From positions 1 through 59,915 of the forward strand of contig CALVWV010000022.1 in the NCBI GenBank assembly GCA_944368065.1: a stretch of DNA of 59,915 nucleotides, given 5' to 3'. The stretch is from an uncultured Clostridia bacterium (lineage in GTDB: Bacteria; Bacillota; Clostridia; Christensenellales; Borkfalkiaceae). This document shows, piece after piece, positions 610-41,971 of the stretch. The notes under the pieces were generated by a model. The model was not told the DNA's origin. It was given only the letters and a program-made list of their open reading frames with translations, and searched no databases. Numbering within the stretch: position 1 is the first letter of the stretch; every line of letters starts with the position of its first letter. A program made the position numbers and the translations under genes.

Positions 610-631
610 TTGCGGCATATATGCGGGGCAA
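610..631 (-). repeat. Intergenic 22-bp near-palindrome, copy A
   Basis: Reverse-strand copy of the motif with core TTGCCCCGCAYATATG followed by CCGCAA; this copy matches the consensus at every position. It is one of seven copies in the window (see 4348, 9311, 13629, 17437, 26249, 41950), all intergenic. Confidence 0.75.
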
Positions 632-688
632 TTAAGTTTTGCAAGCTTTTGTAACGCCCTTATGCCGCGTTTGAACAAATATCGCAGT

Positions 689-728
689 TGCCCGCGCGAT
701 GCGCCTTTTCAAGCGCATCGCGCGGGCA
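689..728. repeat. 16-bp GC-rich inverted repeat, no T-run
   Basis: Bases 689-704 are exactly complementary to 713-728 with an 8-base loop. Neither strand has a T-run next to it and no gene end is close, so it does not look like a normal intrinsic terminator. It could be a cruciform or an RNA hairpin of unknown use. Confidence 0.6.
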
Positions 729-1016
729 GATTGCTATGCGCATTCAGAAAAAACGCAACGCGAGTCAGAATGCGGCAAATTAACGCGCGGTAAAATGAGG
801 CAAACGCAACGCGCGGCAGAATATTGCGCAGAAGGCGCGCCGCCATTCTTCGGTAAATTGTTATAATATGCCGACGCACGCGGTATAATAAAATATATAA
901 ACCTGCGCGCAAATGCGGCACAGCTCAATATAGCTGCGGCAAGGCGCGGATGCTTATTTTCATTCCGCTTTTTCCGTTATGCCCTTTTGCGACGGCAAAA
1001 ACATAAGGAGCTTGAT

Positions 1017-1265
1017 ATGAAAGATTTCATAAGTCAGGTAAACGGACTTCCGCTTATTTTAAAAATCATTCTGTGCATACCCGTGCTTGAAATTTTTTAC
1101 GGCATATGCCGCGTTATAAACGGCGCGGCGAAAAACGACGTGTTGTGGATACTGCTCGGCGTACTGACGATAATTCCAGGCGCGTTTTTCATGTGGGTGC
1201 TCGACCTTGTATGGGTAATTGTAAAAGGTCACGCGTTCCTGCTCGGCGATACTTATCTTGGCTGA
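1017..1265 (+). CDS. Small two-helix membrane protein (paralog of 1586-1810)
   Basis: 82 residues. I do not recognise a named family. Start chosen at the ATG at 1017 because AAGGAG lies 7 bases upstream; the longer frame from 987 has no ribosome site. Two hydrophobic segments are visible, about residues 10-33 and 41-66, separated by a short polar loop with a lysine. The same plan occurs in the gene 320 bases downstream: an Ile-Pro in helix 1, an (I/T)IPxG turn, and a W-x-L-D-hydrophobic2-W motif at the end of helix 2. The two are therefore paralogs. Each has its own terminator, and the second has its own promoter. Location would be the cytoplasmic membrane; function unknown. Confidence 0.75.
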   Translation: MKDFISQVNGLPLILKIILCIPVLEIFYGICRVINGAAKNDVLWILLGVLTIIPGAFFMWVLDLVWVIVKGHAFLLGDTYLG

Positions 1266-1270
1266 AAAAC

Positions 1271-1307
1271 AAAAAAATCTGCCTGCAATGCCTCGGCAGA
1301 TTTTTTT
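1271..1307 (+). terminator. Terminator after first mini membrane protein
   Basis: Stem AAAAAAATCTGCC (1271-1283) with GGCAGATTTTTTT (1295-1307), starting six bases after the stop codon. The A/T ends make it usable on both strands. Confidence 0.85.
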
Positions 1308-1360
1308 AATGCGTTTGGCGCATAGTACGGCGTTTCAGAGCGCTCGGAAATTGATGGTGA

Positions 1361-1474
1361 CGGCGCGTTGAAAGCAGTAAAGCTGCGCGAGTAAAATTAT
1401 GCAAACGGCGCGTTGAAAGTGTTGAAAGCAGTAAAGACGCGCGCAGAAATTGCGGGGAAGTTGCGCGCAGAAAT
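1361..1474. repeat. Cluster of short direct repeats between the two paralogs
   Basis: CGGCGCGTTGAAAG occurs at 1361 and 1406; GTTGAAAGCAGTAAAG at 1367 and 1421; GCGCGCAGAAAT at 1439 and 1463. The rest of the 1308-1527 gap holds no recognisable gene. The pattern suggests slipped duplication or decay around the duplicated gene pair. Confidence 0.6.
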
Positions 1475-1527
1475 CAGGCAAAGGCGGTGTGTAGGATTGA
1501 TAAAGGGGCTCAAAAAAATTTTTTGTA

Positions 1528-1555
1528 TTGACATATCCGCCGATTGTGGTATAAT
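1528..1555 (+). promoter_or_regulatory. Promoter of second mini membrane protein
   Basis: TTGACA (1528-1533), 16-base spacer, TATAAT (1550-1555), with a TGG immediately before the -10 that could act as an extended -10. Both hexamers are perfect consensus. Confidence 0.85.
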
Positions 1556-1585
1556 AATATTATAAATAAAAATAAGGAGTGGAAT

Positions 1586-1810
1586 ATGACTTGGTTTAAC
1601 AGACAGAGCCGTCTGGTTCAGATTCTCCTTCTGCTTATTCCCGTTGTAAACTGGATAACGGAAATTGTGGTAAGGTGGAGTACCTGGCTCAAAAAAGGTG
1701 GCATTCTCAGACTTATAATCTGTATAATCGTAACCATCCCTTCCGGTATTATCGTCGGCTGGCTTGATATGATATGGTGCCTTCTCTTCAAAAAACTGTG
1801 CTTCCAGTAA
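1586..1810 (+). CDS. Small two-helix membrane protein (paralog of 1017-1265)
   Basis: 74 residues, unknown function. The ATG at 1586 follows AAGGAGT with 5 bases between, so the upstream in-frame start at 1544, which overlaps the -10 box, is rejected. Two hydrophobic helices (about residues 10-31 and 38-66) end in WLDMIW, the same motif as in its neighbour (VLDLVW); the IP and TIPSG turns are also shared. It has a consensus promoter and its own terminator, so it is expressed alone. Short monocistronic genes of this kind can be stress or membrane-associated regulators, but nothing here shows that. Confidence 0.78.
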   Translation: MTWFNRQSRLVQILLLLIPVVNWITEIVVRWSTWLKKGGILRLIICIIVTIPSGIIVGWLDMIWCLLFKKLCFQ

Positions 1811-1820
1811 TAAGCATGCA

Positions 1821-1849
1821 AGCGGCTGCGCAAAAATTGCGCAGCCGCT
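1821..1849 (+). terminator. Terminator after second mini membrane protein
   Basis: A 13-bp perfect stem (1821-1833 with 1837-1849) followed by CATTTTA, 10 bases after the stop. Confidence 0.75.
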
Positions 1850-1860
1850 CATTTTATGCA

Positions 1861-1896
1861 AATGCCGCGCCCCGAATGTTTTCGGGGCGCGGCATT
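1861..1896 (-). terminator. Terminator of the aldo/keto reductase gene
   Basis: A 16-bp perfect stem (1861-1876 with 1881-1896) between convergent genes; AT-rich on both sides. It probably ends the minus-strand reductase message and can back up the plus-strand terminator at 1821. Confidence 0.75.
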
Positions 1897-1943
1897 TGTT
1901 TACCTTATTATCCGCGAATTATTTATGCGGTGCTAAGTTTCCT

Positions 1944-2807
1944 TCATACGCCGAGGTGGAAAAATCCCAGCGTCTTTCTCAGCGGAACTTTATATCCTTT
2001 ATCCCAGGGGAAGAGACTTTCTCCGCGGTCGAGCGAGTCGATTGCGACGATATCCTCATCAGAAAGATTTACTTTAAAAAATTCTCCGTTTTCCCTGATG
2101 CGCTCAGGTTTTGATGATTTGGGTATGACGGCAACACCCTGAGCGTGCAGCCACGCAAGTATCACCTGCGCCGCTGTGCAGCCGTGTTTTTCGGCTATGC
2201 CGCAGATGACGGGGTTGCGGAATATGTCCAGCTTTCCTTCGGCAAACGGCGCCCACGCTTCGGGCAGTATGCCTCGGCTTTCAAGGTACTTTATAAGCTC
2301 CTTTCTGGCATAGAAGGGGTGCAGCTCTATCTGATTTACGGCGGGCACAATTTCCGCGCCTTTTATAAGATTTTCAAGCTCTTTTATGCCAAAGTTGGAA
2401 ACGCCTATGGCGCGTATTTTGCCTTCGCGCACGCACTCCTGCATAGCCCGCCACGCGTTTTTTACCCAGCCGTAAGGCTCGTGTATGAGGTAGAGGTCCA
2501 CATAGTCCAGCCTGAGCTTTTTCAGCGAGCGTTCAAGCGCTTTTTTCGCCTTTTTGTATCCGCAGTCGGCAAACCACAGTTTTGTGGTTATGAACAGCTC
2601 TTCGCGCGGCACTCCGCAATTTTTAATCGCCCGACCCACGGCGGCTTCGTTTCCGTATACGGCGGCGGTATCTATCATGCGGTAGCCGTTTTCAATGGCG
2701 CATATAACGCTCTTTTCGCATAGCTTCGGGTCTTTGTTCTGAAAAACTCCCAGCCCGCAGCACGGCATTTTAACGCCGTTATTCAATGTAAAATATTTGT
2801 TTTCCAT
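1944..2807 (-). CDS. Aldo/keto reductase, diketogulonate-reductase (AKR5-like) type
   Basis: NAD(P)H-dependent carbonyl reductase, cytosolic, 287 residues from the ATG at 2807. The catalytic tetrad is all present: Asp in IDTAAVYG, Tyr in the same motif, Lys in ITTKLW and His in YLIHEP. Other family marks are GLGVFQ near the N-terminus, IGVSNF, NQIELHP and the cofactor loop VIPKSSKPERI. A TTG at 2846 would add 13 residues unlike the family, so ATG 2807 is preferred, although its ribosome site is weak. It is monocistronic, with convergent plus-strand genes beyond its terminator. The physiological substrate cannot be told from sequence. Confidence 0.9.
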   Translation of the reverse strand: MENKYFTLNNGVKMPCCGLGVFQNKDPKLCEKSVICAIENGYRMIDTAAVYGNEAAVGRAIKNCGVPREELFITTKLWFADCGYKKAKKALERSLKKLRLDYVDLYLIHEPYGWVKNAWRAMQECVREGKIRAIGVSNFGIKELENLIKGAEIVPAVNQIELHPFYARKELIKYLESRGILPEAWAPFAEGKLDIFRNPVICGIAEKHGCTAAQVILAWLHAQGVAVIPKSSKPERIRENGEFFKVNLSDEDIVAIDSLDRGESLFPWDKGYKVPLRKTLGFFHLGV

Positions 2808-2834
2808 GGCTTTATCGCCCGTTCGGGCATATTT

Positions 2835-2848
2835 GCTTGAATTCAAGC
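2835..2848. promoter_or_regulatory. 14-bp perfect palindrome upstream of the reductase
   Basis: GCTTGAATTCAAGC lies 28 bases upstream of the reductase ATG, with a smaller hairpin (GCCCG-TT-CGGGC, 2817-2828) between it and the start. The size and position suit an operator for a dimeric repressor, but no -35/-10 pair stands out, so this is inference. Confidence 0.4.
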
Positions 2849-2903
2849 TATTATTGTTTCAGCCGCATGCTGCGGAATAGTCGATGAAGGAAAAATATTT
2901 TAT

Positions 2904-3431
2904 TTAAACTGTTACCTGCTTGTACTCCCTGCCGGCAATCGTTTTGAAAGTGAAAGTCCTGTTCTCATACACGATGTAGCCGCGTTCGCTTGCTTCTTTG
3001 GGAAGGCTCACCGAGCCGGGGTTGAGGTGCAGGAAGCCTGTTTTTTCTATCAGGGGAACGTGCGTGTGCCCCGTTACGTACACGTCGCCGTCGCAGAGCG
3101 GAGGCACGGCGCGGTGTCCGTGCGAAAGATAGATGTTAATGCCGTCTGCGCAGATTACCGCATAGTCAGAAAGGCAGGGGAAGGAGAGCACCATCTGGTC
3201 TACTTCCGCCTCGCAGTTGCCGCGCACGCATATGATTTTTGTCTTGTAGTTTGAAAGCATTTCCGCAACTTCCTGCGGGGCGTAGCCGTCGGGCAGGGGA
3301 TTGCGCGGACCGTGGTAGAGTATGTCGCCGAGAAGAAGCAGCTTGTCTGCTTTTTCCCTCTCGAACGCTTCAAGCATCATTCTGCAGTATTTTGCCGAAC
3401 CGTGCAGGTCAGAGGCTATAAAAAGTTTCAT
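2904..3431 (-). CDS. YfcE-type metallophosphoesterase
   Basis: Small (175 aa) calcineurin-like phosphodiesterase of the MJ0936/YfcE family. The two-metal site motifs are in order: DLHG near residue 8, GDILYHG near 36, GNCE near 72, LSHGH near 103 and GHTH near 120, then NPGS. Family members hydrolyse phosphodiester bonds in small substrates in vitro; the in vivo role is unclear. The start codon ATG overlaps the stop of the upstream phosphatase gene (ATGA), and AAGGAG lies inside that gene, so the two are translationally coupled. Confidence 0.92.
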   Translation of the reverse strand: MKLFIASDLHGSAKYCRMMLEAFEREKADKLLLLGDILYHGPRNPLPDGYAPQEVAEMLSNYKTKIICVRGNCEAEVDQMVLSFPCLSDYAVICADGINIYLSHGHRAVPPLCDGDVYVTGHTHVPLIEKTGFLHLNPGSVSLPKEASERGYIVYENRTFTFKTIAGREYKQVTV

Positions 3432-4219
3432 AAAAGCTCCTTTATCTTTTTTATTACGCCGAATTCGGCGTTGGAGGGGATGACGTTCGGTATATATTTT
3501 TTAAGCTCGGGGAATGCGTTTGCCGTAACGTAGGATTGTCCGCTCGTCTGCAGCATTTCCAGATCGTTCATATGGTCGCCGAAGGAAACGCACTGGTCGC
3601 GGTCGGCGCCCAGCTCCTTTAAAAGCGCGGCGAGCGCCATGCCCTTGTTTGCGCTGTCCGTGCACACGTCCAGCCAGTCGAAGCCCGAAACCTTTGTGCG
3701 CAGCCCCTTTATTTTTGGTATGAGCGCGGCGGAGCCGTGTTCTGCGGCGGGCAGCTTGTCCCACACTGAAATTTTTAAAATGGTGTCGTATTTTACGGCT
3801 TTTGAAAGGTCGTCAACTTTCTTTACGCTGGTATATGAGCGGTAGAGCACTTCCTCGAACTGTTTGTCGTCCGAATCGTAGTAGGCGCAGTCCACGCCGC
3901 TGCAAAGGGGGAAGAGGTCTTTTTCCCGCTTTATTATGTCAAGCGCGTACAGTATATCTTCCGCGGGGGTGGGGTTGCAGTATATAATTTTACCGCCCTT
4001 CCAGCACAGACCGCCGTTTTCTGCGATTATGGCAATTTTATCGAGCTCGGGCTCAAAAAGTTTTTTAAGATTTGGCAGCTGTCTGCCGCTCGCGGGGGTA
4101 AAGGTTATGCCGCGGCGGTACATTTCTTCTATGAGCGGAAAGGTCTCTTCGGGCATGATTTTGGTAGGGGGAAGAAGCGTGCCGTCGAGGTCGCTCGCAA
4201 TGCATTTAATTTCTTTCAC
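3428..4219 (-). CDS. Cof-type HAD hydrolase
   Basis: 263 residues, the usual size for Cof/IIB HAD sugar phosphatases. Motif I is DLDGTLL near residue 10 (nucleophile Asp, acid/base Asp two positions on), motif II is the Ser in FTPASGRQ, and motif IV is SFGDHMNDLEML near residue 216. Cap type C2 lies between motifs II and III. Likely dephosphorylates sugar phosphates, FMN or similar. It is the first gene of a two-gene operon with the YfcE-like phosphodiesterase; copy B of the intergenic 22-bp motif lies about 130 bases upstream of its start. Confidence 0.9.
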   Translation of the reverse strand: MKEIKCIASDLDGTLLPPTKIMPEETFPLIEEMYRRGITFTPASGRQLPNLKKLFEPELDKIAIIAENGGLCWKGGKIIYCNPTPAEDILYALDIIKREKDLFPLCSGVDCAYYDSDDKQFEEVLYRSYTSVKKVDDLSKAVKYDTILKISVWDKLPAAEHGSAALIPKIKGLRTKVSGFDWLDVCTDSANKGMALAALLKELGADRDQCVSFGDHMNDLEMLQTSGQSYVTANAFPELKKYIPNVIPSNAEFGVIKKIKELL

Positions 4220-4286
4220 TGTTTTTCCTGCAATATGTCAGAGTATGTGCGCGCATTTTTAAACTTCTGCGCAGTTATTTTAAAAA

Positions 4287-4330
4287 CCGCAAAAAACCGC
4301 GCAGCTCTTCTGCCTTTCGGTTTTTTGCGG
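4287..4330 (-). terminator. Probable terminator of the MDR gene
   Basis: CCGCAAAAAACCG (4287-4299) pairs with CGGTTTTTTGCGG (4318-4330); read on the minus strand the hairpin is followed by GTTTTTAAAAT. A shorter hairpin (4390-4407) lies closer to the gene end. Confidence 0.6.
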
Positions 4331-4347
4331 AATGATGTTGTTATTAA

Positions 4348-4369
4348 ATCGCACATATGTGCGGGGCAA
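4348..4369 (-). repeat. Intergenic 22-bp near-palindrome, copy B
   Basis: Core TTGCCCCGCACATATG on the minus strand; here the second arm is GTGCGAT rather than CCGCAA, which makes the centre (GCACATATGTGC) a perfect 12-bp palindrome. Confidence 0.7.
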
Positions 4370-4447
4370 TTTAAAAATTTTTTATTTTCAGCCGCTTTGC
4401 TGCGGCTTTATAAGGCTTTTTCAAAACGGGGAATCGACGGAATGTTT

Positions 4448-5467
4448 TCAGATTATAAGCTTGAACATCGTCATTTTGCCCTTGCGCGAAGCGTTCACGT
4501 CGCACAGCCCTCTGTAAATTACGTTGGGGTCAAATTCCGTGAGCGTTTCCTTTTCAAATACGTCCGTGGTAACCGCCTTGTGCACAAGCAGGTTTATGGC
4601 GGTGTCGGTGTAGCCGAAGCCGTTCATCACGGTAAAAAGGGTGGTATTTTTGTCGCACAGTTCGCGCGCGGGGATATTGAAGTTTATGGGCGCAAAACCT
4701 GCAAGCACGGCGCATTTGCCGTCTGCAAGCACGCGCATTGTGAGCGCGGGGTCAAGTCTTGAGCACGTGGTATAAACCGCGGCGTCGCAAAGCTGACCGC
4801 TCGTCGCTTCCTTTATGTTCTCGGCAAGGTCGTCGTCGGCGGCAAAGGCGTAGTAAACGCCGCAGCTGCGCGCGCGCTCCAGAGCCTGAGGACTGTTGTC
4901 TATGACTATGGGGATAAGTTTATGGTACTGAAATACCTGCGCTATTATGTTTCCCGCAAAACTGCTGCCTAAAACGGCAACCCTGCTGCCTGCGGGCAGG
5001 TCAAGCTTGTCGTAAATTTTTTCGGCGACGGCGACGGCCTCGGTGCACAGCGCTTCAGTATCGCTGACGGAATCGGGCAAAGGCGCAACGTCGGTATATT
5101 TGCATACGGCAAAATCGCGCAGAAAGCCGTCAAAATCCCTGCCTGCAATCCAGGGCGAGGCGCATTCGTCCTCTTTGCCCGTCTTGCATGCAAGGCAGCT
5201 GCCGCAGCTTCTCGTGGGCTGAAGGAGCACGCGCATGTTTTTTTCTATGCCGTAACATTCCGCGCCGACTTCCGTTATCCTGCCTACGGCAAATCTGCCG
5301 ATGGTCTTGGGGTAGCGCACTTTGTTTTCGCCCGAGTAGAGCACCGCGTCGAAGTTTGAGGCAAGAACGTAAGCTATTTTAACTTTGACTTCGTCCGCGC
5401 CTACCGTCTGTTCTTTGACCGGCTCGTTGACGAGCGAGCCTGCATTTTTTAAAATCCAGTTATCCAT
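4448..5467 (-). CDS. Zinc-containing MDR (alcohol dehydrogenase-like) protein lacking catalytic zinc ligands
   Basis: Medium-chain dehydrogenase/reductase, 339 residues from ATG 5467. The structural zinc lobe is complete (Cys 88, 91, 94 and 102) and the Rossmann turn is recognisable (VAVLGSSFAGN near residue 165). In the catalytic zinc site the usual Cys is replaced within LASNFD (about 35-40) and the usual Gly-His-Glu is GRF (57-59). Zinc-dependent alcohol oxidation is therefore doubtful; it may be a divergent reductase or sensor-like protein. The promoter lies so close that the transcript is predicted to begin about 6 bases before the ATG, with no ribosome site. It stands alone. Confidence 0.82.
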   Translation of the reverse strand: MDNWILKNAGSLVNEPVKEQTVGADEVKVKIAYVLASNFDAVLYSGENKVRYPKTIGRFAVGRITEVGAECYGIEKNMRVLLQPTRSCGSCLACKTGKEDECASPWIAGRDFDGFLRDFAVCKYTDVAPLPDSVSDTEALCTEAVAVAEKIYDKLDLPAGSRVAVLGSSFAGNIIAQVFQYHKLIPIVIDNSPQALERARSCGVYYAFAADDDLAENIKEATSGQLCDAAVYTTCSRLDPALTMRVLADGKCAVLAGFAPINFNIPARELCDKNTTLFTVMNGFGYTDTAINLLVHKAVTTDVFEKETLTEFDPNVIYRGLCDVNASRKGKMTMFKLII

Positions 5468-5479
5468 AATTCTGCTTTC

Positions 5480-5508
5480 ATTATACTCATATTTTTTTAT
5501 AAAGGCAA
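5480..5508 (-). promoter_or_regulatory. Promoter of the MDR gene, predicted leaderless start
   Basis: On the minus strand TTGCCT (5503-5508), 17 bases, TATAAT (5480-5485). Transcription would start near 5473, only about 6 bases before the ATG at 5467. Confidence 0.7.
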
Positions 5509-5607
5509 CTAAAATATTAAAAAAAGGCAAAATCGCGGCGCCGCCCTGCGTGCAGACGGGTCAAAAAGCATAAAAAATTGCGTTACGGGTGTGTTTTTCT
5601 CCTTAAA

Positions 5608-5648
5608 GCCGCCCGCCCGCAAATTTTTGTGGGCGGGCGGCATTTTTT
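5608..5648 (+). terminator. Strong terminator with no plus-strand gene before it
   Basis: GCCGCCCGCCC (from 5608) pairs with GGGCGGGCGGC (to 5641), followed by ATTTTTTTATT. The nearest upstream gene is on the other strand, so it either insulates rpmE or ends an unseen short RNA. Confidence 0.7.
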
Positions 5649-5709
5649 TATTATCATATCAATTAAAGTCGTCGACATAATTTTTTTTATGCATAAGGCG
5701 GTAAATTGA

Positions 5710-5738
5710 TTGACTGCCCATAAAGAATGATATATAAT
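5710..5738 (+). promoter_or_regulatory. rpmE promoter
   Basis: TTGACT (5710-5715), 17 bases, TATAAT (5733-5738); about 30 bases of leader before the GTG start. Confidence 0.85.
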
Positions 5739-5773
5739 GATTTAGCATTGAAATCTAACGCGAGGTGAATAAA

Positions 5774-5977
5774 GTGAAGCCCGATATACATCCTAAGTAT
5801 CATGAAGTAACGGTTGTATGCGCCTGCGGCGAAACGTTCAAAACGGGTACCACCAAAAACGTGGAAACGCTCAGGGTGGATATCTGCAATAAGTGCCACC
5901 CGTTCTTTACAGGCAAGCAGAAGCTCGTTGACACAGGCGGCCGTGTGGACAAGTTCAAGAAAAGATACAATATGTAA
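5774..5977 (+). CDS. rpmE: 50S ribosomal protein L31, zinc-binding form
   Basis: 67 residues. The GTG at 5774 is chosen because the mature family begins MKPDIHP and GAGGTG lies 6 bases upstream; the in-frame GTG at 5765 overlaps that ribosome site. The four zinc ligands of the C+ form are present (VCACG and CNKCHPF), followed by [11 protein letters not shown] typical of the C-terminus. It has its own promoter and terminator and precedes the DUF1385-PrmC and prfA genes, the standard Bacillota order. C+ L31 is usually the zinc-replete paralog; no C- copy is in view. Confidence 0.96.
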
Positions 5978-5986
5978 GGAAAGATG

Positions 5987-6024
5987 GCGGCTCCAAATTA
6001 TTTGGTGCCGCTTATTTTCCTTTT
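5987..6024 (+). terminator. rpmE terminator
   Basis: GCGGC-T-CCAAA pairs with TTTGG-T-GCCGC (5987-6011), then TTATTTTCCTTTT. Confidence 0.75.
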
Positions 6025-6061
6025 ATGCTTTTTTTCATGTAAAATGCGGCGGCGCGCCGTC

Positions 6062-6099
6062 ATATGCTATATAAGGCGTAATATGCTGTATAAGGCGTA
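6062..6099. repeat. Tandem 19-bp duplication before the DUF1385-PrmC gene
   Basis: Two adjacent 19-base units (6062-6080 and 6081-6099) that begin ATATGCT and end ATAAGGCGTA, differing at one base. A perfect 7-bp hairpin (CCCTGCA/TGCAGGG, 6142-6158) follows 13 bases before the start codon. Confidence 0.7.
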
Positions 6100-6171
6100 A
6101 AAAGGCGCATTGCATTCCGTCCGCATTTCAGTGCACATCAGCCCTGCAAAATGCAGGGACGCGGATAAATT

Positions 6172-7992
6172 ATGTCTGAAAAAACAAAGAAAAAGAAAAT
6201 TTCCTGTTCGATAGGCGGCCAGGCCGTGCTTGAAGGCGTAATGATGATGGGCAAAACGTGCATGGCGACTGCCGTGCGCGACCCCGACGGGCAGATTCAG
6301 GTGGAGGCAAAGCGCCTCAAAGTTTCGCCCTCGCTTGCCCGCGCATCAAAAATACCTTTCGTGCGCGGCATAGTCAACATGGTTGCAAGCCTTGTTCGCG
6401 GCACGGGCACGCTGATGCGCTCCGCCGCCGTGTACGGAGAGGAAGAGGAGGCGGGCAGGTTCGAAAAGTGGCTCGCCGAAAAATTCAAAATAAATTTAAT
6501 GACGGTGGTATCCACCATAGCGGTGTGCCTCGGCGTAGTTCTCGCCGTCGTGCTGTTCATGGTGCTGCCCAACCTTGCCGTAAGCGCCCTTAAGGAGCTT
6601 TTTCCTTCCCTTACGGGCAGCGCGTGGGAATACGTGCTTTTAGGCGTGTTCAAACTTGCGATATTCTTCATATATCTCGGACTCATTCTCGTTTTAAAGG
6701 ATATCCGCAGGCTGTACATGTATCACGGCGCGGAGCATAAAACCATCACCTGTTACGAAAAGGGCATGCCCCTCACCGTAGAAAACGTCATGAGCTGTTC
6801 GCGCATGCACGCACGCTGCGGCACTTCCTTTCTCTTTATAGTAATAGCCGTAAACATACTCATAATTTCGCTCGTCAACTGGGCGCTCGGCGTGGCTTCC
6901 ATTGAAAACGGCGTTCTGCAGTTCCTTGCAAAACTCGGCATAGAAATAGTGCTGTTGCCTGTAATCGCGGGCATTTCGTACGAAATTTTAAAGCTCGTGG
7001 CCAGGTTCGACAATAAGTTCGTGCTTATTTTCAAAGCGCCCGGCTTCCTTATCCAGAAGTTGTTCACCACGCGCGAACCCACCAGGGAGATGGCAGAAGT
7101 GGCGATTGCCGCCTTTGAAAAGGTGCTTGAAATGGACGCCGACCCCAAAATGGAAGAGACAGAGTTCATAACGGGCGGCATACTTTCGCAGAAGCTTGCC
7201 GATACCAAGAAAAAATTTGCCGCAAAAGGCATAGACGAAAGCGATGCCGAGTGGATATATTCGCTCGTTCTGGACATTAAGCGCAGCGAACTTTCTTCCG
7301 AGCGCATAATAACCCCAGCCGAGAGCAAGCAGATTGCGTCCATCGTGGAAAAGCGCCTTACGGGCAGACCGCTGTGGTACATCATAGGCGACGTCGATTT
7401 CTGCGGCTGCACCATAAAGGTGGACGAAAGGGTGCTCATACCCCGTCCCGAAACGGAGCAGCTCGCCGAAATAGCCATAAAGACGGTTGAAGAGGGCGAC
7501 AAGGTGCTGGATATGTGCACGGGCAGCGGCTGTCTTGCGATAGCGATAGCCAAGGGCTGTGCCGGCAAAAACATATCGGTGACGGCGGCAGACGTGTCCG
7601 ACGCGGCGCTTATGCTCGCCAAGGAAAATGCCAATTTCAACAGCGCGGTGGTGCACTTCGTGCAGACCGACCTGTTTGAAAATATCCGCGGCAGATTCAA
7701 CGTAATCGTATGCAATCCGCCCTATATAAAGACGGAGGAAATCGCCGCGCTTGACAGAGAAGTTAAGGACTTCGAGCCGAGGATTGCGCTCGACGGCGGC
7801 GAAGACGGGCTTGATTTTTACAGAAGGCTTGCAAAAGAGGTCAACCGCTACGTTGCGCGCGGCGGCATGCTCATTATGGAAGTCGGCGAAGACCAGGCGG
7901 CGGAAGTTTTGCGCCTCTTTGAAAAGCGCGACTATGCTATAGTCATAAAGGACTTAGAGGGCAAAGACAGGTTCCTTAAAATAGCATTTTAA
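6172..7992 (+). CDS. prmC: DUF1385 (YqhQ-like) membrane domain fused to PrmC release-factor methyltransferase
   Basis: 606 residues in one uninterrupted frame. Residues about 10-320 are DUF1385: IGGQAVLEGVMMMG at the start, transmembrane segments near 108-133, 150-170, 218-240 and 260-285, and the conserved YHGAEHKTITCYE and C(S)RMHARCGTSF motifs. Residues about 335-606 are PrmC, which methylates the Gln of the GGQ motif in release factors: the N-terminal helical domain, the SAM loop DMCTGSGCLAIA and the catalytic NPPY (CNPPYIKTEE). In most Bacillota these are adjacent separate genes between rpmE and prfA; here they are joined. prfA, the PrmC substrate, follows. The start ATG has only a weak ribosome site. 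Confidence 0.93.
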   Translation: MSEKTKKKKISCSIGGQAVLEGVMMMGKTCMATAVRDPDGQIQVEAKRLKVSPSLARASKIPFVRGIVNMVASLVRGTGTLMRSAAVYGEEEEAGRFEKWLAEKFKINLMTVVSTIAVCLGVVLAVVLFMVLPNLAVSALKELFPSLTGSAWEYVLLGVFKLAIFFIYLGLILVLKDIRRLYMYHGAEHKTITCYEKGMPLTVENVMSCSRMHARCGTSFLFIVIAVNILIISLVNWALGVASIENGVLQFLAKLGIEIVLLPVIAGISYEILKLVARFDNKFVLIFKAPGFLIQKLFTTREPTREMAEVAIAAFEKVLEMDADPKMEETEFITGGILSQKLADTKKKFAAKGIDESDAEWIYSLVLDIKRSELSSERIITPAESKQIASIVEKRLTGRPLWYIIGDVDFCGCTIKVDERVLIPRPETEQLAEIAIKTVEEGDKVLDMCTGSGCLAIAIAKGCAGKNISVTAADVSDAALMLAKENANFNSAVVHFVQTDLFENIRGRFNVIVCNPPYIKTEEIAALDREVKDFEPRIALDGGEDGLDFYRRLAKEVNRYVARGGMLIMEVGEDQAAEVLRLFEKRDYAIVIKDLEGKDRFLKIAF

Positions 7993-9310: not shown

Positions 9311-9332
9311 TTGCCCCGCACATATGCCGCAA
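9311..9332 (+). repeat. Intergenic 22-bp near-palindrome, copy C
   Basis: TTGCCCCGCACATATG followed by CCGCAA, one base from consensus. It ends 23 bases before the -35 box of the metalloregulator promoter, the closest motif-promoter distance in the window. Confidence 0.75.
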
Positions 9333-9355
9333 CAATCGCGCAAAAGCTTTATGTA

Positions 9356-13574: not shown

Positions 13575-13628
13575 TGTTAAGCTTTTTCAGTAATTTTATA
13601 TCGCTATAGTCTTGTAATTATGCATTAA

Positions 13629-13650
13629 TCTGCATATATATGCGGGACAA
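13629..13650 (-). repeat. Intergenic 22-bp near-palindrome, copy D (diverged)
   Basis: Minus-strand TTGTCCCGCATATATATG: one substitution in the C-run and two extra bases in the AT centre. It lies about 117 bases upstream of the aminotransferase -35 box. Confidence 0.55.
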
Positions 13651-17436: not shown

Positions 17437-17458
17437 ATGCCCCGCATATATGCCGCAA
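17437..17458 (+). repeat. Intergenic 22-bp near-palindrome, copy E
   Basis: ATGCCCCGCATATATG followed by CCGCAA, one base from the consensus; about 135 bases upstream of the trpS -35 box. Confidence 0.75.
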
Positions 17459-17592
17459 TCAACGCTGAAAAATCAAAAAACGGCGTTGCTGCGCCTGATA
17501 TTTTGCAAAAAGCGCGTGGCGGATTATGGTGAAAAAGGGGTGTAAATTTCCGCTTACTTTGGTGATTGATTAAACTAAGCGCGTCAATCTCG

Positions 17593-26248: not shown

Positions 26249-26270
26249 TTGCCCCGCATATATGAGCTGA
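26249..26270 (+). repeat. Intergenic 22-bp near-palindrome, copy F
   Basis: TTGCCCCGCATATATG is exact; the trailing arm is AGCTGA instead of CCGCAA. About 80 bases from each of two divergent promoters. Confidence 0.7.
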
Positions 26271-26351
26271 TGAAATTGTTTTTACCCGGAATTGCAGACC
26301 ATTATCTTGCCCGTTTTTAATTATTTGTCCGCCGATTTTTCATTTTGCTCA

Positions 26352-30044: not shown

Positions 30045-30102
30045 CGCTTATCCGGTTGAATAAGGCATATGCGCAAGTCAATCAGATTATGATATTTTAA
30101 TG

Positions 30103-30138
30103 ATATATGGCGGGCAATTTTAATTGCCCGCCATATAT
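30103..30138. terminator. 17-bp palindromic hairpin between convergent genes
   Basis: Bases 30103-30119 pair with 30122-30138 (ATATATGGCGGGCAATT and complement). Flanking sequence is AT-rich but has no T-run; likely a shared terminator. Confidence 0.55.
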
Positions 30139-30141
30139 AGC

Positions 30142-30474
30142 TTAATTATTTTTCTTTACAAATAACCTGCAGTACGCAGGGCGGAATTTTTTGCCGTCCT
30201 CTCCGCGGCGAAAAAGTTTCTCGTCGGCGCTGAGCGCTATGAAATCGCAGTTTTCCGCGCCCTCGGGCGAGGTGAACGACTGAAGCCTGACGTATGCGCC
30301 GTCGCGCTTTTTTTTGCGTAAAGTGTGGCGCTCTTTTGCTTTGAAAACCGTCATGAGCGAAAGTCCTTCGATGTCGCCCTCTTCAAACGGAATGTATCCC
30401 GCGCCGAGGATTGCGCCTGCGACCTCCGCCGAGGTCTTTTTTTTATTGAGTTTTCTTAAAAGTCTGCCTTTCAT
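30142..30474 (-). CDS. Hypothetical basic protein, predicted leaderless
   Basis: 110 residues, not recognised. Strongly basic at both ends (RKLNKKK near the start, FVKKNN at the end), a central KERHTLRKKKRDG stretch, and no membrane segment. Supported as a gene by a good promoter exactly in register: the -10 box ends 8 bases before the ATG, so transcription would begin about 2 bases upstream, and there is no ribosome site. Codon use resembles that of the neighbouring genes. It could bind nucleic acid given its charge, which is a guess. Confidence 0.6.
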   Translation of the reverse strand: MKGRLLRKLNKKKTSAEVAGAILGAGYIPFEEGDIEGLSLMTVFKAKERHTLRKKKRDGAYVRLQSFTSPEGAENCDFIALSADEKLFRRGEDGKKFRPAYCRLFVKKNN

Positions 30475-34581: not shown

Positions 34582-34609
34582 TTTTAAACGTTTCAGACAG
34601 TGTTATAAT
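34582..34609 (+). promoter_or_regulatory. Possible hsp20 promoter
   Basis: TATAAT at 34604-34609 is clear; the -35 is poor (TTTTAA at 34582, 16-base spacing). No CIRCE element (TTAGCACTC repeat) is seen, so HrcA control is not indicated. Confidence 0.45.
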
Positions 34610-34677
34610 TAAAGTGAAAAAAGAATCAAGGCAAACGCCCGGATCCTTTAAATAAATTTAAAGGAGATTTAAATATT

Positions 34678-35109: not shown

Positions 35110-35341
35110 GGAAGGAGCAACCTTCGCCGCGGCAATGCGCGGCAACAAAAATTACGCGTACAAAGGCGGAGCGGAGGAAAATCCGCCCGGCCCTTAAAGC
35201 GGAATAAAATTCCGCTGTCAAATAAGCTTGCGGAAATAATTAATAAGGTATTTATTTCTGATTTGATTTTTCCGCATGCCTGAAAGCGATTACACTCCGC
35301 CGCTTGCGGCGGTCAATACGTAAATCTCTCCTTAAAGTAGT

Positions 35342-35382
35342 CATGGGCGGCGCAGAGTAATCTGCGCCGCCCATGTTTTTTT
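35342..35382 (+). terminator. Terminator 230 bases after hsp20
   Basis: A 15-bp perfect stem (35342-35356 with 35361-35375), loop GTAA, followed by seven T. Confidence 0.9.
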
Positions 35383-35536
35383 ACTGTATTTTTTATTTGA
35401 TTAATTGTATTTTTAAAAATAAAAAACGAGCAATTAATTTCTTATAAATTGGCGAAAAATCAATAAAAAAATAATCAGTTTTTATTTGCAATAATTTAAT
35501 TAAAAATATGCTCAAAAAAATTCTGAAAAAATACGG

Positions 35537-35571
35537 AAAAAAGCGGCGGAAAAAATTTCCGCCGCTTTTTT
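35537..35571 (-). terminator. Terminator of the KDPG aldolase gene
   Basis: A 16-bp perfect stem (35537-35552 with 35556-35571), A-rich and T-rich at the ends so that it works on both strands. Confidence 0.8.
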
Positions 35572-35582
35572 ATTTTAATGTT

Positions 35583-36203
35583 TTATGCGTTTTTTACGAG
35601 TTTTACAACTTCTTTGGTTTTTGCTTCGATTTCTTCGGGAGTGCCCTTCATCATCCAGCTGCCGCCGCATGCGATGATTTTATCGTAAGCAAGGTATTCC
35701 ATGATATTGTCTGCGGAAATGCCGCCCGTGGGCATAATCTGAAGATAAGGGAATGCCGCGCAGATAGCTTTGATGGTTTTAAGTCCGCCGTAGTTTGAAG
35801 CGGGGAAGAACTTTAACGTGGTAAGACCTTTAGCTATTGCAGCCATTGCCTCGGTAGGGGTAACAATGCCGGGCAGGTAAAGCATTTCGTGTTCTTCGCA
35901 GCAGTCGGCAACTTCTGCGGAGAAGCCGGGCGAAACTATGAATTTAGCGCCTGCAACAATAGCCTGTTCGCACTGATTTTTATTTATAACCGTGCCTGCA
36001 CCGATAAGCGCGTCGGGGAAGTTATCTACGGCAAGCTTGATGGCTTCAGCCGCGCATTCTGTGCGGAATGTAATTTCTGCGCAGGGAAGACCGCCCTTTA
36101 CAAGCGCCGTCATCTTGGGCATAACTTCGTCTATAGAGTTGAAAACTACTACAGGCACAACTTTGGTTTCCTTGATTTTTTCAATCATCTGCTGTTTTGT
36201 CAT
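35583..36203 (-). CDS. eda: KDPG/KHG aldolase
   Basis: 206 residues, class I aldolase that splits 2-keto-3-deoxy-6-phosphogluconate into pyruvate and glyceraldehyde 3-phosphate (and acts on 4-hydroxy-2-oxoglutarate). TIM-barrel marks: VVPVVVFN near the start, Glu in CAEITFRT near 44, GAGTV near 69, and the Schiff-base lysine in TTLKFFPA near 128, followed by MPTGGI. GGAGG precedes the ATG at 36203. Alone in its operon; no kdgK or edd nearby. Confidence 0.94.
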   Translation of the reverse strand: MTKQQMIEKIKETKVVPVVVFNSIDEVMPKMTALVKGGLPCAEITFRTECAAEAIKLAVDNFPDALIGAGTVINKNQCEQAIVAGAKFIVSPGFSAEVADCCEEHEMLYLPGIVTPTEAMAAIAKGLTTLKFFPASNYGGLKTIKAICAAFPYLQIMPTGGISADNIMEYLAYDKIIACGGSWMMKGTPEEIEAKTKEVVKLVKNA

Positions 36204-36277
36204 TTTAAACCTCCGTGTGGTTTCAGATTTTACTTTATTCAGGGCGCTCTTTTGCGCCCCTTCTTAACTCCGCCATT

Positions 36278-36306
36278 ATTTTACCACACTGTTTTGCATA
36301 ATGCAA
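36278..36306 (-). promoter_or_regulatory. eda promoter
   Basis: On the minus strand TTGCAT (36301-36306), 17 bases, TAAAAT (36278-36283). Confidence 0.7.
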
Positions 36307-36505
36307 CATTTGCGTAAAAATTGTGCATAAATTTTACTTTTGCTGTGAATGATTTCATATAAATATTCTTATACAAATTAAAAGAATCGTACGGCGCAAA
36401 ATTTTTTTTAACGGGTAAAACTTTTTAACCGCTATATATGCTTAAAACATCGCGTAATTTTACAATAAATTTACGCGATTGCAGATTTGTGCAATGATAT
36501 GTATA

Positions 36506-36551
36506 TTGACATTGATTTGGGGCTGGGGTATAATTAAGTTACTTATAAGTA
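36506..36551 (+). promoter_or_regulatory. Promoter of the large surface protein, with palindrome at +1
   Basis: Perfect consensus TTGACA (36506-36511), 17 bases, TATAAT (36529-36534). A perfect 12-bp palindrome TACTTATAAGTA (36540-36551) sits at the expected start of transcription, a candidate operator. The 200 bases upstream to the eda promoter hold no ORF. Confidence 0.85.
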
Positions 36552-36680
36552 GCCTGAAGAGGAGTAAAAGGATTAAAGGGGCATGCCCCTTTGTGCTGTG
36601 ATACACAGCACAACAATGCTTCTTAAAAGCCGAGTAATTTTTTGCGGGTCGCTTTAAGAATAAACAGGAGGCTTAAATTA
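36552..36680 (+). promoter_or_regulatory. Structured 5' leader of the surface protein gene
   Basis: About 140 nt of untranslated leader. It contains an 18-bp perfect palindrome AAAGGGGCATGCCCCTTT (36575-36592), immediately followed by an 8-bp hairpin GTGCTGTG-ATA-CACAGCAC (36593-36611), and a longer imperfect pairing of CTTAAAAGC (about 36622) with GCTTTAAG (about 36651), just before AGGAGG. No known riboswitch class is recognised. Confidence 0.55.
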
Positions 36681-39600
36681 ATGTATTTTACAAAGAGAAA
36701 AGGCCTGATAGCCTTTTAGTGGTCCTGTTTGCGGCAGCGTTCATTTCGTGCCTTGCGATGTTCGCTGTGCCGGGAAAGACTGTATTTGCTGCAGATGACA
36801 CCGGAACGCAGACTGACGGCGAGCAGACGGAAAATGTAACTACTGTAACTGATGCGGGTTCGCTGAAAAATGCCATCAGCAGTACAGATGCTGAGGTTAA
36901 TATCAGGCTCGGCGCAAATATTGCTGCCGATGTTGAGGTGCCTGATGGTAAAACTGTAACGCTTGACCTCAACGGTTTTACTCTTACAAACGTAATTGAT
37001 CATACAATCACCAATAGGGGTTTTCTTACTATTATTGACAGTTCTGCTGAACATATCGGAACCGTCGATAATATATCAAATCAAAGAAATGCTATTTTTA
37101 ATCTTGGCGAGGCAACTCTGCTCGGCGGCAATTATACTCGCAGCCACGAGGCAGGCAGCGATCTTAACAACGGCGGTGGCAACAGTTGGTACAATATTAA
37201 AAATCTCGGTCATCTTACAATAGGCGAAAAAGGTAAGGAATGTAACGTCAAAATTATTCAGACCGGTCATTTTTCCAGCCTTGTAACCAATGGTTATTAT
37301 TACGATGATGATGTCGTGGGTGAGGACTATATGGATTATAGCAACTTAGTAACGACCGGCGATAAGATTCCTACGCTTACGATTTATGGCGGCGAATTTA
37401 CAGGTGGTGCTAATTCTATAAAAAATGATAATCATGGTGTTATTACAATAGAAGACGGAACATTCAACAACAGTACCCAGTCGGTAATTCTTAACTGGAA
37501 CTATCTTACAATCAACGGCGGCTCATTCAACATTAGCGATACAGCTACGGCTGCTGTGACGACGTCTTATTTAAATTCCGGTTATAATAATGGTACGACC
37601 ACAATCGATGACGGCCAATTTAATGGTGCTATATTGGCTGGTACTGGCGCAGCTAATGTTAAATACAGCATTTCTGGCGGCGAGTTCACAACCGCTTTGA
37701 ATGAAAAGTTTATTGCTGACGATAGCTTGTTCTATGCTACAGAGAATGGCTATTCTGTCGGAACAGAGGAAGAGGCGGGTGAAGCAGGCGCAGTTGCGGC
37801 TATAGGCAAAATAACTTATGAATCGCTTCAGGCAGCAGTTGATGATGCCGATAATGGCGACACTGTAGCTCTTATCGAGGGTGCAAACGGTACACAAAAG
37901 GGCGGCGGTGTAATGATAGAGGCAGCCAACGCAAAAGATATAACTATAGATTTTAAGGGGCTTACATATGAAATGGCAGGACCTTCGGTTGGTTCCAGCG
38001 GCACAGAAAGTCAGTCATTCCATTTTGAAAAAGGGTGCAATATAGTATTAAAAAATGGCAATCTTTTCTCTTCTGACGAAGCTTGCAGAATGCTGATACA
38101 GAACTATGCTAATCTGACTCTTGAAAATATCGTTCTTGATGCGGCGTCCAGTGCAAATCCCGAATGCGAAGCCCTGTCTGTAAACTGCGGTAACGTTATT
38201 ATAAAAGGCAACACTCAATTGCTTGCAGCTGACTATGTAGCTTTCGACGTGTATTACTGGCCTAGCGGCGGTTATGGAGAGGGAGCAAGCGTTACTTTCG
38301 ACGAAACTTTTTCTGGCAGGGTCGAAGGTGTAGTTGGTTATGATAGCGATAATGTTGGGGCTGCCGAGATATATGATAACTTATCCGTTGAAATAAATGG
38401 TAACGGATCTTTTGATATCAGTCTTGCGGTAAATAGCAGCAGCGCTAAAATTGTTGCAAACAGCGGTATCTTTACAGAGATGTTGCCTGAAGAATACCTT
38501 GGCGAAAACTCTGTACTTTATACGGATAATGAAGGTACTTATGCAGTTGCGTCCTCAGCTCCTGAAGGTATGGTAAAGGTCGGAGTTTTTGCAAACGGCA
38601 AAGCATACACCACAGTAGCCGATGCGCTTGCCGCAACCGAAGGCGAAGTAACGGTTATGCTTTATGATGATCTGGTTGAAGATGTTGTGATTCCGGAAGG
38701 CAGAACTGTAACCCTTGACCTTAACGGTAAAACGCTTACCAACGCAGAAGCAAATCCGATAACTAATAATGGTAATCTTACCATAACCGGAAACGGTATC
38801 GTCAGAGCTGGAGGAGAAAAAGGATTATTCAGGGCTGTCGATAATGCAGGCGGAGTTGTTTTAATTGAAAATGGTGAATTTATCTCCAATTCTGTTGCTA
38901 TCTATAATACTAACGGCGAAGCAACAATAAATGGCGGCAGATTTGTCGGGTCAAATCAAAGCCTTGTTATTTCTATGGGGGAAATGACGATAAACGGCGG
39001 AACGTTTGTAAATGAATTATATGTTAATGCTACAGCGGTAAATGCCATTACAGGTACTCTGACTATCAATGACGGTTCGTTTTCTGCTGTTAGTCAGGCT
39101 GTGTCCGCAAGTGTAGGTGTTACTGTTAATATCTATGGCGGTACGTTTGAAGTCAGCAGTTATGCTTATGGCACAATGCTCAATGTGATGGGAGCAGATC
39201 TTACTGTAACCGGCGGTACATTTGTAACTCCTAATTCGGATATGATAGTAGCTGTTAATCTGACTAATAATGGTACGGTTGCCATAAGCGGCGGCACATT
39301 TAGTCTTCCGATTTCTATGGATTACTTAGAAGAGGGATATGCTCTCAGCTATGATTCTGTAAAAGATACGTTTACCGTTGAATCTGGCACGCTGTTTGCG
39401 CATGTTGCCCGCGGTTTAAAGACGTACGGTTTTGTTCAGCCTAACTATGCAATTGCATTTGCGGACGAGGGTGAAACAGTTGTTTTTGATGTAAGTTTCA
39501 ATATTAGTGGCGGGGCACTTGTAATAAATAAGGCGATTAATATTGACCTTAACGGAAAAACAATAACAAACTCTGATACAACTTATGCCGTAATTCAGAT

Positions 39601-41818
39601 TAATGGCCTTGAATCAGGCAAAACATTTGACGTGAATATTTATTCCTCAGCAGAAGGGGCAAAGATTGCGAGCGGTAGTTCAATTGCTCTTTGGGCATTT
39701 GACGATGCGAACGTAACGGTTGATGGAATTACGCTTGAAGGCGCGTTAAGGGCAGCTGCTGTCGGCAAAGATGGTAACTTTACCAATGCGAGCCTTACGC
39801 TTAATAATTGCTTGGTGGTCACAACAAAGAAAGATGCTGACGGTATAGCCGTTATGGGTAATGTTACAAACGGCAACGAAGCTTATTACGATACGCTTAA
39901 TCCCGTAACGCTTGTATTGAACAATACAGAAATTAAAGTCAAGGGATATGCTGTATTTGGCAACGGTTTGTATCATAATACATATATTGAAATAAATGAC
40001 AGCAATCTCTTAACGGACGGCTCCGGATATACCGGCATATATCATCCCCAGAACGGTACGTTGATAGTAAACGGTGGTTCTATCACGGCTGAGAATGCCG
40101 CTATAGAAATCCGTGCGGGCGATCTTACAATTAAGAGTGACGCCGAACTTACCGCAACCAGTACAGAATTTGAAACTTTGCCCAATGGCGGGGATCATCC
40201 CGACGGCAATACCGTTGCCGGTGCAGCGCTTGCAATATCGCAGCATACTACCGATTTGGATATAAACGTTAATATTGAAAGCGGTACATTTAACGGCGTA
40301 AAAGCTGTTTATGAAAATGACTTGCAGAATGATTCAAGCGACAATATATCTCTCAGCATTTCAAACGGACAATTTAACGGTGCGGTTGAAAGTGAGAATG
40401 AAATTGGTTACATAACCGGCGGTCTGTTTAAAGAGCTTCCCGCTCCAGACGCTTTTGCTGCCGGGCTTACGGGTGAACTTTTTGACGGCTATTATGTTAC
40501 AGTAAATGCTGAAGAAGCTGGCACTGCGGCAACGATAGCTGACAGGCTTAGCGCTCAGAACGATATGCGCGTTTACCTTGCGGCATTTGGACTTACTCTT
40601 GACAATATTCAGAAACTCGCGGAAACTGATGATTCGGCAGCTGCTGTCGCTGAAGCTTATGAAGACATATTCATGAGCAACACTAAAGATGATATCGCAA
40701 AATCACTTGCTGCAGCTATGGATGCGGTGGACGCGTTCGTCGACGCGCTCAACGCTGCACGCGATGCGGCTGTGGCTGAACTTGAGATTTACGCGGCGGC
40801 AGGTGAAGGAACTGTGGAGGTGGCTCTTCCCACGTACATTCTTTCCGCAATCAACGGTGCTGAATCTGCCGACGAAATCAACGCTTACCTGGATTCTGCA
40901 AAAGCGGAAATAGATGAAATCCGTGCAGAGCGCAAAGCCGCTGAAGAAGATACGGCTGACCTTGAACGGCAGATAAAAGATGTTGCGAATAAACTTGCTG
41001 CTGTTGAAAGCATAGCAGGTAATAATTCCACAAAACTCGATAATCTGACAGCGGATATGGCTGAGGCAAACGATGCGATTGACGAGATTCAGGCTCTTTT
41101 AGGATCTGCGGCGGACACATCGGCAAACGAGACGATAGTCGGCATGATAAAGGAAACTCAGGATAAAGTCGCGGCGGTTGAAACCAATCTTAAGGCTTAC
41201 ATAGACGGCGCGGTGACAAAATTATCCGAAAATGTCAGGTCAATGCTCGACGCGCTTGACTTTGCCGACAGCGCCGACGTGGCGGCTCTCGAGAGCAAGC
41301 TTACAGAGATAAGCGGATATGTTGATGGCGTGGAGGCGGGCATAGGCAACCTTGCCGACGGCGAAACGCTTGCGTCCGTACTCGGCGGCATTGCAACCGC
41401 TCAGGAAGACCTTGAGACTGCGGTAGGCGAATACAAGACAGCTGTTGAAGATGCTTTGGCGGATATAACCGAAACTCTTGCAACGCTCAAGAGCAGCGTT
41501 GAAGGGCTTTCAGAAGACGTTGCGGATAACAAGACGGCTCTTTCTGCAGAGATTGCAAAACTGCAGACGACGGCTGACAAGCTTTCCGAAGACCTCTCTT
41601 CGATAGGCAAGGAAGACCAGACCGATCTTTCTGCGATAGCTCAGAGCGTAACAGAGCTCAAGACCCAGCTTTCTTCTGTGGCGCAGTCCGTGGATACCCT
41701 TGCAACCAACAACGAACAGGCGGGCAGCAGCGTGGCAGGGCTCTATATATTCGTTGCGGTGTTGGTTGTCCTCGTGCTTGCAGTGCTCGTGGTTGTATCC
41801 TTCAAAAAGCGCAGATAA
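36681..41818 (+). CDS. Giant beta-helix surface protein with C-terminal membrane anchor (frameshift in the signal peptide)
   Basis: About 1,710 residues. The best start is ATG 36681 after AGGAGG, encoding MYFTKRKGLIAF, but TAG follows at 36717. One extra T in the CTTTTA run (near 36713) would join it to the large frame as ..AFLVVLFAAAF.., a complete signal peptide ending near VFAADD. The body (to about 40500) is rich in Asn/Gly/Thr and has repeated beta-helix rungs: xVxxPxGxTVTLDLNGxTLTN occurs around 36930, 38700 and 39540, each followed by NxGxLTI and INGGxF strands. From about 40560 to 41730 comes an Ala/Leu-rich coiled-coil stalk, then a transmembrane helix (41737-41800) and KKRR. There is no LPXTG. 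Likely a surface adhesin or carbohydrate-binding protein. Confidence 0.82.
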
Positions 41819-41887
41819 AATGCGATTAAAGAATCTTAGTGAAATCTGCATACGAACGGGTATAAATAAAAACTGACAAAGTGGCAG

Positions 41888-41923
41888 AAGCCGCCGCGCG
41901 TTTTAACGCGCGGCGGCTTTTTT
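41888..41923 (+). terminator. Terminator of the surface protein gene
   Basis: A 15-bp perfect stem (41888-41902 with 41905-41919), loop TT, followed by six T. Confidence 0.9.
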
Positions 41924-41949
41924 ATATCATGCCCATATCAATAAAAAAA

Positions 41950-41971
41950 TTGCCCCGCATATATGCCTTAA
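41950..41971 (+). repeat. Intergenic 22-bp near-palindrome, copy G
   Basis: TTGCCCCGCATATATG exact, then CCTTAA in place of CCGCAA; 131 bases upstream of the next -35 box. Confidence 0.75.

Follow-up and report, generated by a model that had tools for sequence, protein, structure and literature searches.

A dispersed 26-bp asymmetric dyad with phased A/T-rich flanks at gene boundaries of a Coproplasma-like bacterium, possibly the site of a DNA-wrapping protein

What is a short, near-palindromic sequence doing between so many genes of an uncultured gut Clostridia bacterium? The window analysed here, a 59,915-nucleotide stretch of DNA, is contig C22 of an incomplete Candidatus Coproplasma-like metagenome-assembled genome (G000; 1.70 Mb, 52 contigs, 83% complete), whose release-factor protein has its nearest relatives in Candidatus Coproplasma and in other Clostridia genomes. 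A sequence-only reading of the window had reported seven copies of a 22-bp near-palindrome, intergenic and mostly upstream of promoters, and had proposed either the site of a global regulator or nucleoid protein or a new family of short interspersed repeats. We find a 26-bp asymmetric dyad embedded in phased A/T-rich DNA, which recurs across the genome and among relatives, chiefly between genes. Judged by sequence comparison, each copy may be the recognition site of a sequence-specific DNA-bending or DNA-wrapping protein with an organising or insulating role, a reading to which we give slightly less than an even chance.

All seven copies were recovered at their reported positions, five with an exact 16-bp core, one with one mismatch and one with two. 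All are intergenic by our gene calls: that at 26249 separates divergent genes and the other six separate co-directional ones. Three weaker copies, clustered at 30054-30151, had been overlooked. Allowing up to three mismatches, the window contains ten core matches, whereas 100 dinucleotide shuffles gave 1.13 on average and never more than 3, so that, as had been argued, a chance origin is unlikely. Scanning the whole genome with up to two mismatches gave 81 matches, 22 of them exact, far from the random level set by the backwards pattern, which matched twice. From these 81 matches in an 83% complete genome we estimate roughly 100-200 copies per genome, rather than the several hundred extrapolated from the window. 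At least ten core matches were present in 28 of 36 other species of the genus and fewer in the other 8, whereas a single genome taken from each of 24 further families of the order had 0-4, like its control; this sample contained no other genus of the same family. A shorter core, scanned with one mismatch allowed in 93 genomes of the genus, matched between 3 (G010) and 173 (G061) times, with backwards counts of 4-22 as the control. The 23 genomes with at least 50 short-core matches are called motif-rich below and are compared with the other 70.

Alignment of the 81 core matches shows that the unit is 26 bp rather than 22 bp long, an asymmetric dyad of TTGMCCCGCAYAT joined to ATGCCNNAAYYAA, with conservation that begins at an A preceding the core and continues for about 28 bases. 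The dyad centre is the middle of YATATG, and the two half-sites are unlike: L is TTGMCCCGCAYAT and R, on the other strand, is TTRRTTGCGGCAT. In matrix scans, the cut-off for classifying half-sites was at least 22 bits (at least 18 for spacer densities, 16 for orthologous spacers and 14 for pairs). Among the 109 sites so classified, 102 were L/R, seven were L/L and none was R/R. A separate scan with looser half-site cut-offs gave 107 L/R or R/L, eight L/L and five weak R/R sites, with one R/R in reversed sequence. One L/L copy, at C23:19330, is a perfect 26-bp palindrome.

The flanks had been described as not conserved. No flanking sequence is indeed common to the copies, but a pattern of base composition is. 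Across 107 isolated sites from this genome and eight relatives, the A/T fraction oscillates symmetrically around the dyad with an 11-bp period to about 45 bp on each side, the phased positions lying outside the 29 aligned bases. It is about 0.81 at 19-21 bp from the centre, 0.43 at 26, 0.71 at 31, 0.38 at 37, 0.57-0.59 at 42-45 and 0.45 at 48. Phasing power was 0.115 at 11 bp and 0.122 at 11.5 bp, against null maxima of about 0.012 under random rotation of the flanks (0 of 300 reached the observed value), and the peaks and troughs recur when only the relatives' 57 sites are used. Such symmetric phasing would be expected of DNA curved around a protein with its A/T-rich minor grooves facing inward. 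Because an asymmetric dyad is combined with symmetrically phased flanks, the element appears to be a protein-binding site.

The genomic placement of the element bears on what such a protein might do. Only seven of the 81 core matches lie within genes, so they are not equally frequent there; 50 are in co-directional spacers, 16 in convergent spacers, two in divergent spacers (that at 26249 being one) and six at the ends of stretches. Genes, terminators and promoters were called with our own simple scripts, by which 81% of the sampled bases are coding. Our spacer sample from this genome was chosen around core matches, which affects absolute densities and leaves the comparison between spacer types unaffected. 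Sites per kilobase numbered 2.42 in convergent, 1.48 in co-directional and 0.17 in divergent spacers. In 379 kb of relatives' DNA chosen by orthology, which held 66 sites against none in the reversed sequence, the respective densities were 1.18, 0.89 and 0.00. Divergent spacers held two of 81 spacer sites in this genome where 15.7 were expected (P = 2e-5) and none in the relatives where 5.1 were expected (P = 0.006); enrichment in promoter-bearing spacers was thus not found in either set. Convergent spacers of this genome held 19 sites against 10.6 expected (P = 0.013). Within co-directional spacers the sites lean towards the upstream stop codon, at a mean relative position of 0.36 (60 sites in this genome) and 0.41 (37 in relatives), with no preference of strand (29 same, 31 opposite). 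A promoter-like score was obtained for 82 co-directional spacers, 28 of which held a site and were used. Of their 34 sites, 29 are upstream of the highest-scoring promoter-like sequence, where 23.7 were expected, and the distance between the two varies. The description of the copies as mostly upstream of promoters is qualified, genome-wide, by the lean to 3' ends and the avoidance of divergent spacers.

These observations could reflect the operators of a global transcription regulator, placed upstream of promoters in co-directional spacers. A strong 26-bp dyad-like motif and the excess of sites upstream of promoter-like sequences would suit such operators, as would the same-spacer counterparts, in two relatives, of the site ahead of the DtxR-feoB region. 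However, divergent spacers, which have two promoters, are depleted, convergent spacers, which have none, are the most densely occupied, and there is neither a fixed promoter distance nor a strand preference, all of which makes promoter operators unlikely. Thus, the first of the two original proposals is borne out in the features of a protein site (dyad and phased A/T) and opposed, for a promoter regulator, by the divergent depletion. The placement fits a structural or boundary site better.

Sites also occur together at a preferred spacing. The 224 sites of at least 14 bits in most of the sampled DNA form 28 pairs within 130 bp, of which six have centres exactly 32 bp apart (two tandem, four back-to-back); every other distance occurs at most twice. 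Because three of the six are one orthologous pair, found in a convergent spacer of the window (30045-30141), G061 and G015, they amount to four independent events. The arms of this pair vary between the three genomes yet remain mirror images within each, for which selection for a hairpin or template switching are the simplest readings. The back-to-back pair in the window is predicted to form a strong RNA hairpin (z -5.8), whereas five single sites fold no better than shuffled sequences (z 0.6, 0.45, -0.25, 0.6 and 0.3). A separate arrangement, of three tandem copies, lies between dnaA and mnmG in this genome (L345:11300-11498, a stretch of contig C11); in the corresponding spacer G015 has a strong single site, G085 and G083 have weak ones, and G061, G115, G002 and G029 have none.

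A hairpin with mirror-image arms kept across three species, together with a genus-specific distribution and frequent location at gene ends, might point to a DNA-uptake signal or a transcription-terminator signal. We regard either as very improbable. Uptake signals are far denser than the roughly one core match per 20 kb found here. As for terminators, the sites are mostly single, lack strand bias and, in the five single cases, lack a fold; they show no link to intrinsic terminators predicted with a simple finder (a site in 17 of 50 terminator spacers and in 33 of 114 others), and the window has no Rfam match between 1 and 43000.

The same placement and flanks could also arise if each copy were a strong site dedicated to DNA gyrase, comparable to that of phage Mu or to bacterial interspersed mosaic element 2 (BIME-2), and took up positive supercoils behind genes. 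Location at 3' ends and in convergent spacers suits this possibility, and phased flanks around the dyad, of A/T or G/C, which characterise strong gyrase sites, are present here as phased A/T in both the full and the relatives-only sets. According to PMC6379681, E. coli gyrase has a long motif, of 130 bp with G/C phased at 10 bp, and the enzyme accumulates downstream of transcribed units; gyrase wrapping is the stated topic of a preprint (PMC12393610). According to PMC12324340, type II enzymes of three species share preferences for -4G/+8C and -2A/+6T. The left half of the present core suits these (G 95%, A 95%), but the right half does not (C 31% and T 12% at the matching places), and the +1G/+4C positions are A/T. 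In addition, gyrase motifs are degenerate where this 26-bp core is strict, and pairs 32 bp apart are too close for two gyrase complexes. The likeness to strong gyrase sites (that of Mu and the E. coli motif) lies in A/T phasing that extends through some 90 bp or more of flank and in the bias downstream of genes, and a dedicated gyrase site seems improbable. GyrA-family genes do not separate species rich in the motif from poor ones, since each of the 30 genomes searched has them.

Conservation was assessed by comparing 26 spacers with their counterparts in eight relatives, whose gene DNA is mostly 70-87% identical, leaving out spacers with broken synteny or shorter than 30 bp in the relative. 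Where the spacer in this genome holds a site of at least 16 bits, a site was found in 18 of 37 assessable relative spacers, compared with 15 of 89 where it holds none (P = 0.0006). Copies thus recur in orthologous spacers, and none of the three outcomes named beforehand as refuting the repeat (a count at the random level, equal frequency within genes, positions not conserved) was obtained. The difference was 8/14 versus 0/20 for spacers of at least 250 bp and 10/23 versus 10/42 for those of 120-250 bp; at 40-120 bp none with a site here was assessable, and 5 of 27 without one had a site in the relative. One interval lacking a site in this genome (L345, C11 18794-18973) has one in six of seven assessable relatives, always on the same strand. 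Relative to the best site in this genome, 13 of the relatives' sites are oriented the same way and five the opposite way. In 31 orthologous pairs on the same strand, flank identity is 33%, close to the 28% of unrelated sites, so neutral positions are near saturation while the consensus persists. Either selection to keep the site or its being gained repeatedly at these places could account for this.

This recurrence bears on the second original proposal, that of an interspersed repeat, in its mobile form: a short repeat like the repetitive extragenic palindromes (REPs), which a transposase would disseminate and which would then be weeded out of genes and promoters. REPs are high-copy and intergenic, are biased to 3' ends and avoid promoters, as this element does, and like REPs and BIMEs it is short and varies between species. 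Matches to the Y1 (RAYT) transposase family tied to REPs (PF01797) occur in 28 of the 93 genomes and are commoner in motif-rich ones (11 of 23 versus 17 of 70; P = 0.04, a value that, like those for the other protein families below, ignores the kinship of the genomes). Despite this mild association, mobilisation by Y1, the only transposase family searched for, gained little support, since 12 of the 23 motif-rich genomes had no match. These include G015, which is 94% complete and has 142 core matches, and G002, which is 95% complete. The asymmetric 26-bp core and A/T-phased flanks also differ from REPs and BIMEs, the five single copies tested lack a hairpin, the copies share no flanking sequence beyond the A/T pattern, and sites recur in orthologous spacers even though the flanks are saturated. 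The GTAG or CGTC end tag of REPs, as named in the title of a paper, is absent from the position table of the 81 matches. The element is a real dispersed repeat, as proposed, but mobility is the less likely part of that proposal, and we doubt that a hopping repeat explains it.

Two further comparisons concerned candidate binding proteins. Sites of chromosome organisers such as parS, Noc sites and matS are dispersed, sequence-specific and free in orientation; a few proteins are known to have them, for the most part in model species. The present sites resemble them in these respects and differ in sequence, in having seven of 81 core matches within genes, and in that most genomes have one full ParB match. 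ParB (PF02195) was matched in 84 of 93 genomes, comprising 16 of 23 motif-rich genomes and 68 of 70 others; seven motif-rich genomes had no match, most of the rest had one, and G062 and G072 had a second, weak match. A Noc-like ParB paralogue was rejected for want of a clear second copy in motif-rich genomes. The seven genomes without a match (G000, G028, G032, G061, G003, G035 and G115) compare with two of the 70 others (P = 0.0007), and contig breaks near the expected place are a likely cause; in G000, a parS-like word with two mismatches occurs at C14:35303.

Lrp/AsnC regulators wrap DNA and occupy neighbouring sites about three helical turns apart, a likeness to the putative wrapping and the site spacing seen here. 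Their family was matched in 75 of 93 genomes, including all 23 motif-rich genomes and 52 of the 70 others (P = 0.005). However, among nine motif-sharing sister species the single Lrp/AsnC-type protein is most variable (64% identity, against 94% in residues 61-150) in residues 30-45, its putative recognition helix; the comparison covered 41 of the 75 proteins. This drift led us to reject it as the reader of the motif. None of the Y1, Lrp/AsnC, ParB and GyrA families explains the motif well.

Taken together, these observations are explained better by a wrapping protein that marks the boundaries of transcription units than by promoter regulation or a mobile repeat. Such a protein would contact the two unlike half-sites, L and R, on either side of a CATATG-like dyad and wind some 90 bp of DNA about itself, with an A/T-rich minor groove turned inward every 11 bp. 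Two sites separated by three helical turns could be occupied jointly. Because sites lie mostly at gene boundaries and away from divergent promoters, we infer that the complex would organise or insulate the chromosome, obstructing supercoils or transcription where genes end, and would not be a promoter switch. A more specific version, a nucleosome-like insulator in which a two-contact protein wraps about 90 bp and forms a barrier at gene ends, limiting both read-through and the diffusion of supercoils between neighbouring transcription units, is speculative and in our view unlikely.

Several results weigh against a wrapping protein at gene boundaries. The convergent excess is significant in this genome only (relatives, 7 against 4.9 expected; P = 0.22), and 17 of the relatives' 66 sites lie inside called genes. 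The ten variable core positions are 48% identical in orthologous pairs and 47% in unrelated sites, so common descent of each site is not established. Two window copies lack counterparts: in seven relatives no site follows the rplQ-like gene within 450 bp, as the copy at 606..631 does here, and in eight other species none lies upstream of the ATPase gene, as the copy at 26249..26274 does. No binding protein was found among Y1, Lrp/AsnC and ParB families over 93 genomes or GyrA over 30. Some species of the genus lack the site, with counts near the control; 400 kb of one motif-poor species, G110, gave three matrix hits (none in reversed sequence) and no obvious replacement motif, its top intergenic 10-mers looking promoter-like. 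Finally, the spread within this genome is uneven: of its 52 contigs, 25 (592,705 bp in all) are empty of core matches although their length predicts 28, and C10 (145 kb) holds one instead of the predicted 6.9. The match-poor DNA (325 kb from 18 of the 25 empty contigs plus C10) contains seven matrix sites of at least 18 bits, and contamination as the cause of the empty contigs was rejected on tetranucleotide correlations with the genome of at least 0.90 for all but one 4.8-kb contig (C16, 0.84). The spread looks uneven in G002 too, less so in G015. Separately, the first 20 kb of contig C24 (L331) are unlike the rest of the genome, with 41% GC and 51% coding by our gene caller.

If a wrapping protein does recognise the element, a high-copy site with a phased A/T cradle would offer a handle on how genes are kept apart in uncultured gut Clostridia. 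The site would also be ready bait for the binding protein, and the variation between species, from 3 to 173 short-core matches, is a natural experiment for a search for the partner by gene content. Literature surveyed at the level of titles and listings (genus, core words, repeats, gyrase, A-tracts, uptake and nucleoid) yielded no description of the element.

Table 1. Copies of the element in the window
Feature	Position	Strand	Context
26-bp site, 45 bits, exact core 616-631	606..631	-	between rplQ-like gene end (500) and next gene
26-bp site, 36 bits, exact core 4354-4369	4344..4369	-	spacer between Cof-type hydrolase-like and alcohol-dehydrogenase-like genes
26-bp site, 39 bits, exact core 9311-9326	9311..9336	+	between prfA and DtxR-like gene preceding feoB
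26-bp site, diverged, 27 bits, core with 2 mismatches (13635)	13625..13650	-	after feoB region
26-bp site, 40 bits, core with 1 mismatch	17437..17462	+	between thrC and trpS
26-bp site, 29 bits, exact core 26249-26264	26249..26274	+	divergent spacer, ahead of P-type ATPase gene
Weak site, 20 bits	30056..30081	-	convergent spacer; from matrix scan
Back-to-back pair, left member, 17 bits, 3 mismatches	30092..30117	-	32 bp centre-to-centre from right member
Back-to-back pair, right member, 26 bits, 3 mismatches	30124..30149	+	same pair layout in G061 and G015
26-bp site, exact core 41950-41965	41950..41975	+	ahead of response-regulator-like gene

Individual window copies recur to differing extents. 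The thrC-trpS interval has a site of at least 31 bits in five of seven relatives examined and a 17-bit site in a sixth, and such sites occur also in relatives that have other genes between thrC and trpS. Orthologous spacers of the copy at 4344..4369 have a site in G061, G015 and G115 and none in G002 and G029. For the copy at 9311..9336, G061 and G015 have sites on the other strand, and G116, G115 and G083 have none of at least 16 bits. The copy at 13625..13650 has counterparts in G061 and G115 and none in G015, G116, G002 and G083.

Sub-families of the site may exist, as core variants recur in several genomes, for example TTGCCCGCCATATATG with five copies in G015. In G002, TTGCCCCGATTATATG accounts for nine of the 52 matches (on C1, C3 and C6) and apparently belongs to a different dispersed repeat. 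Two IMG/VR viral contigs (L343 and L344; 58-60% GC) each contain one copy of an 18-bp portion of the site, scoring 30 and 25 bits, with one copy inside a called gene and the other between genes.

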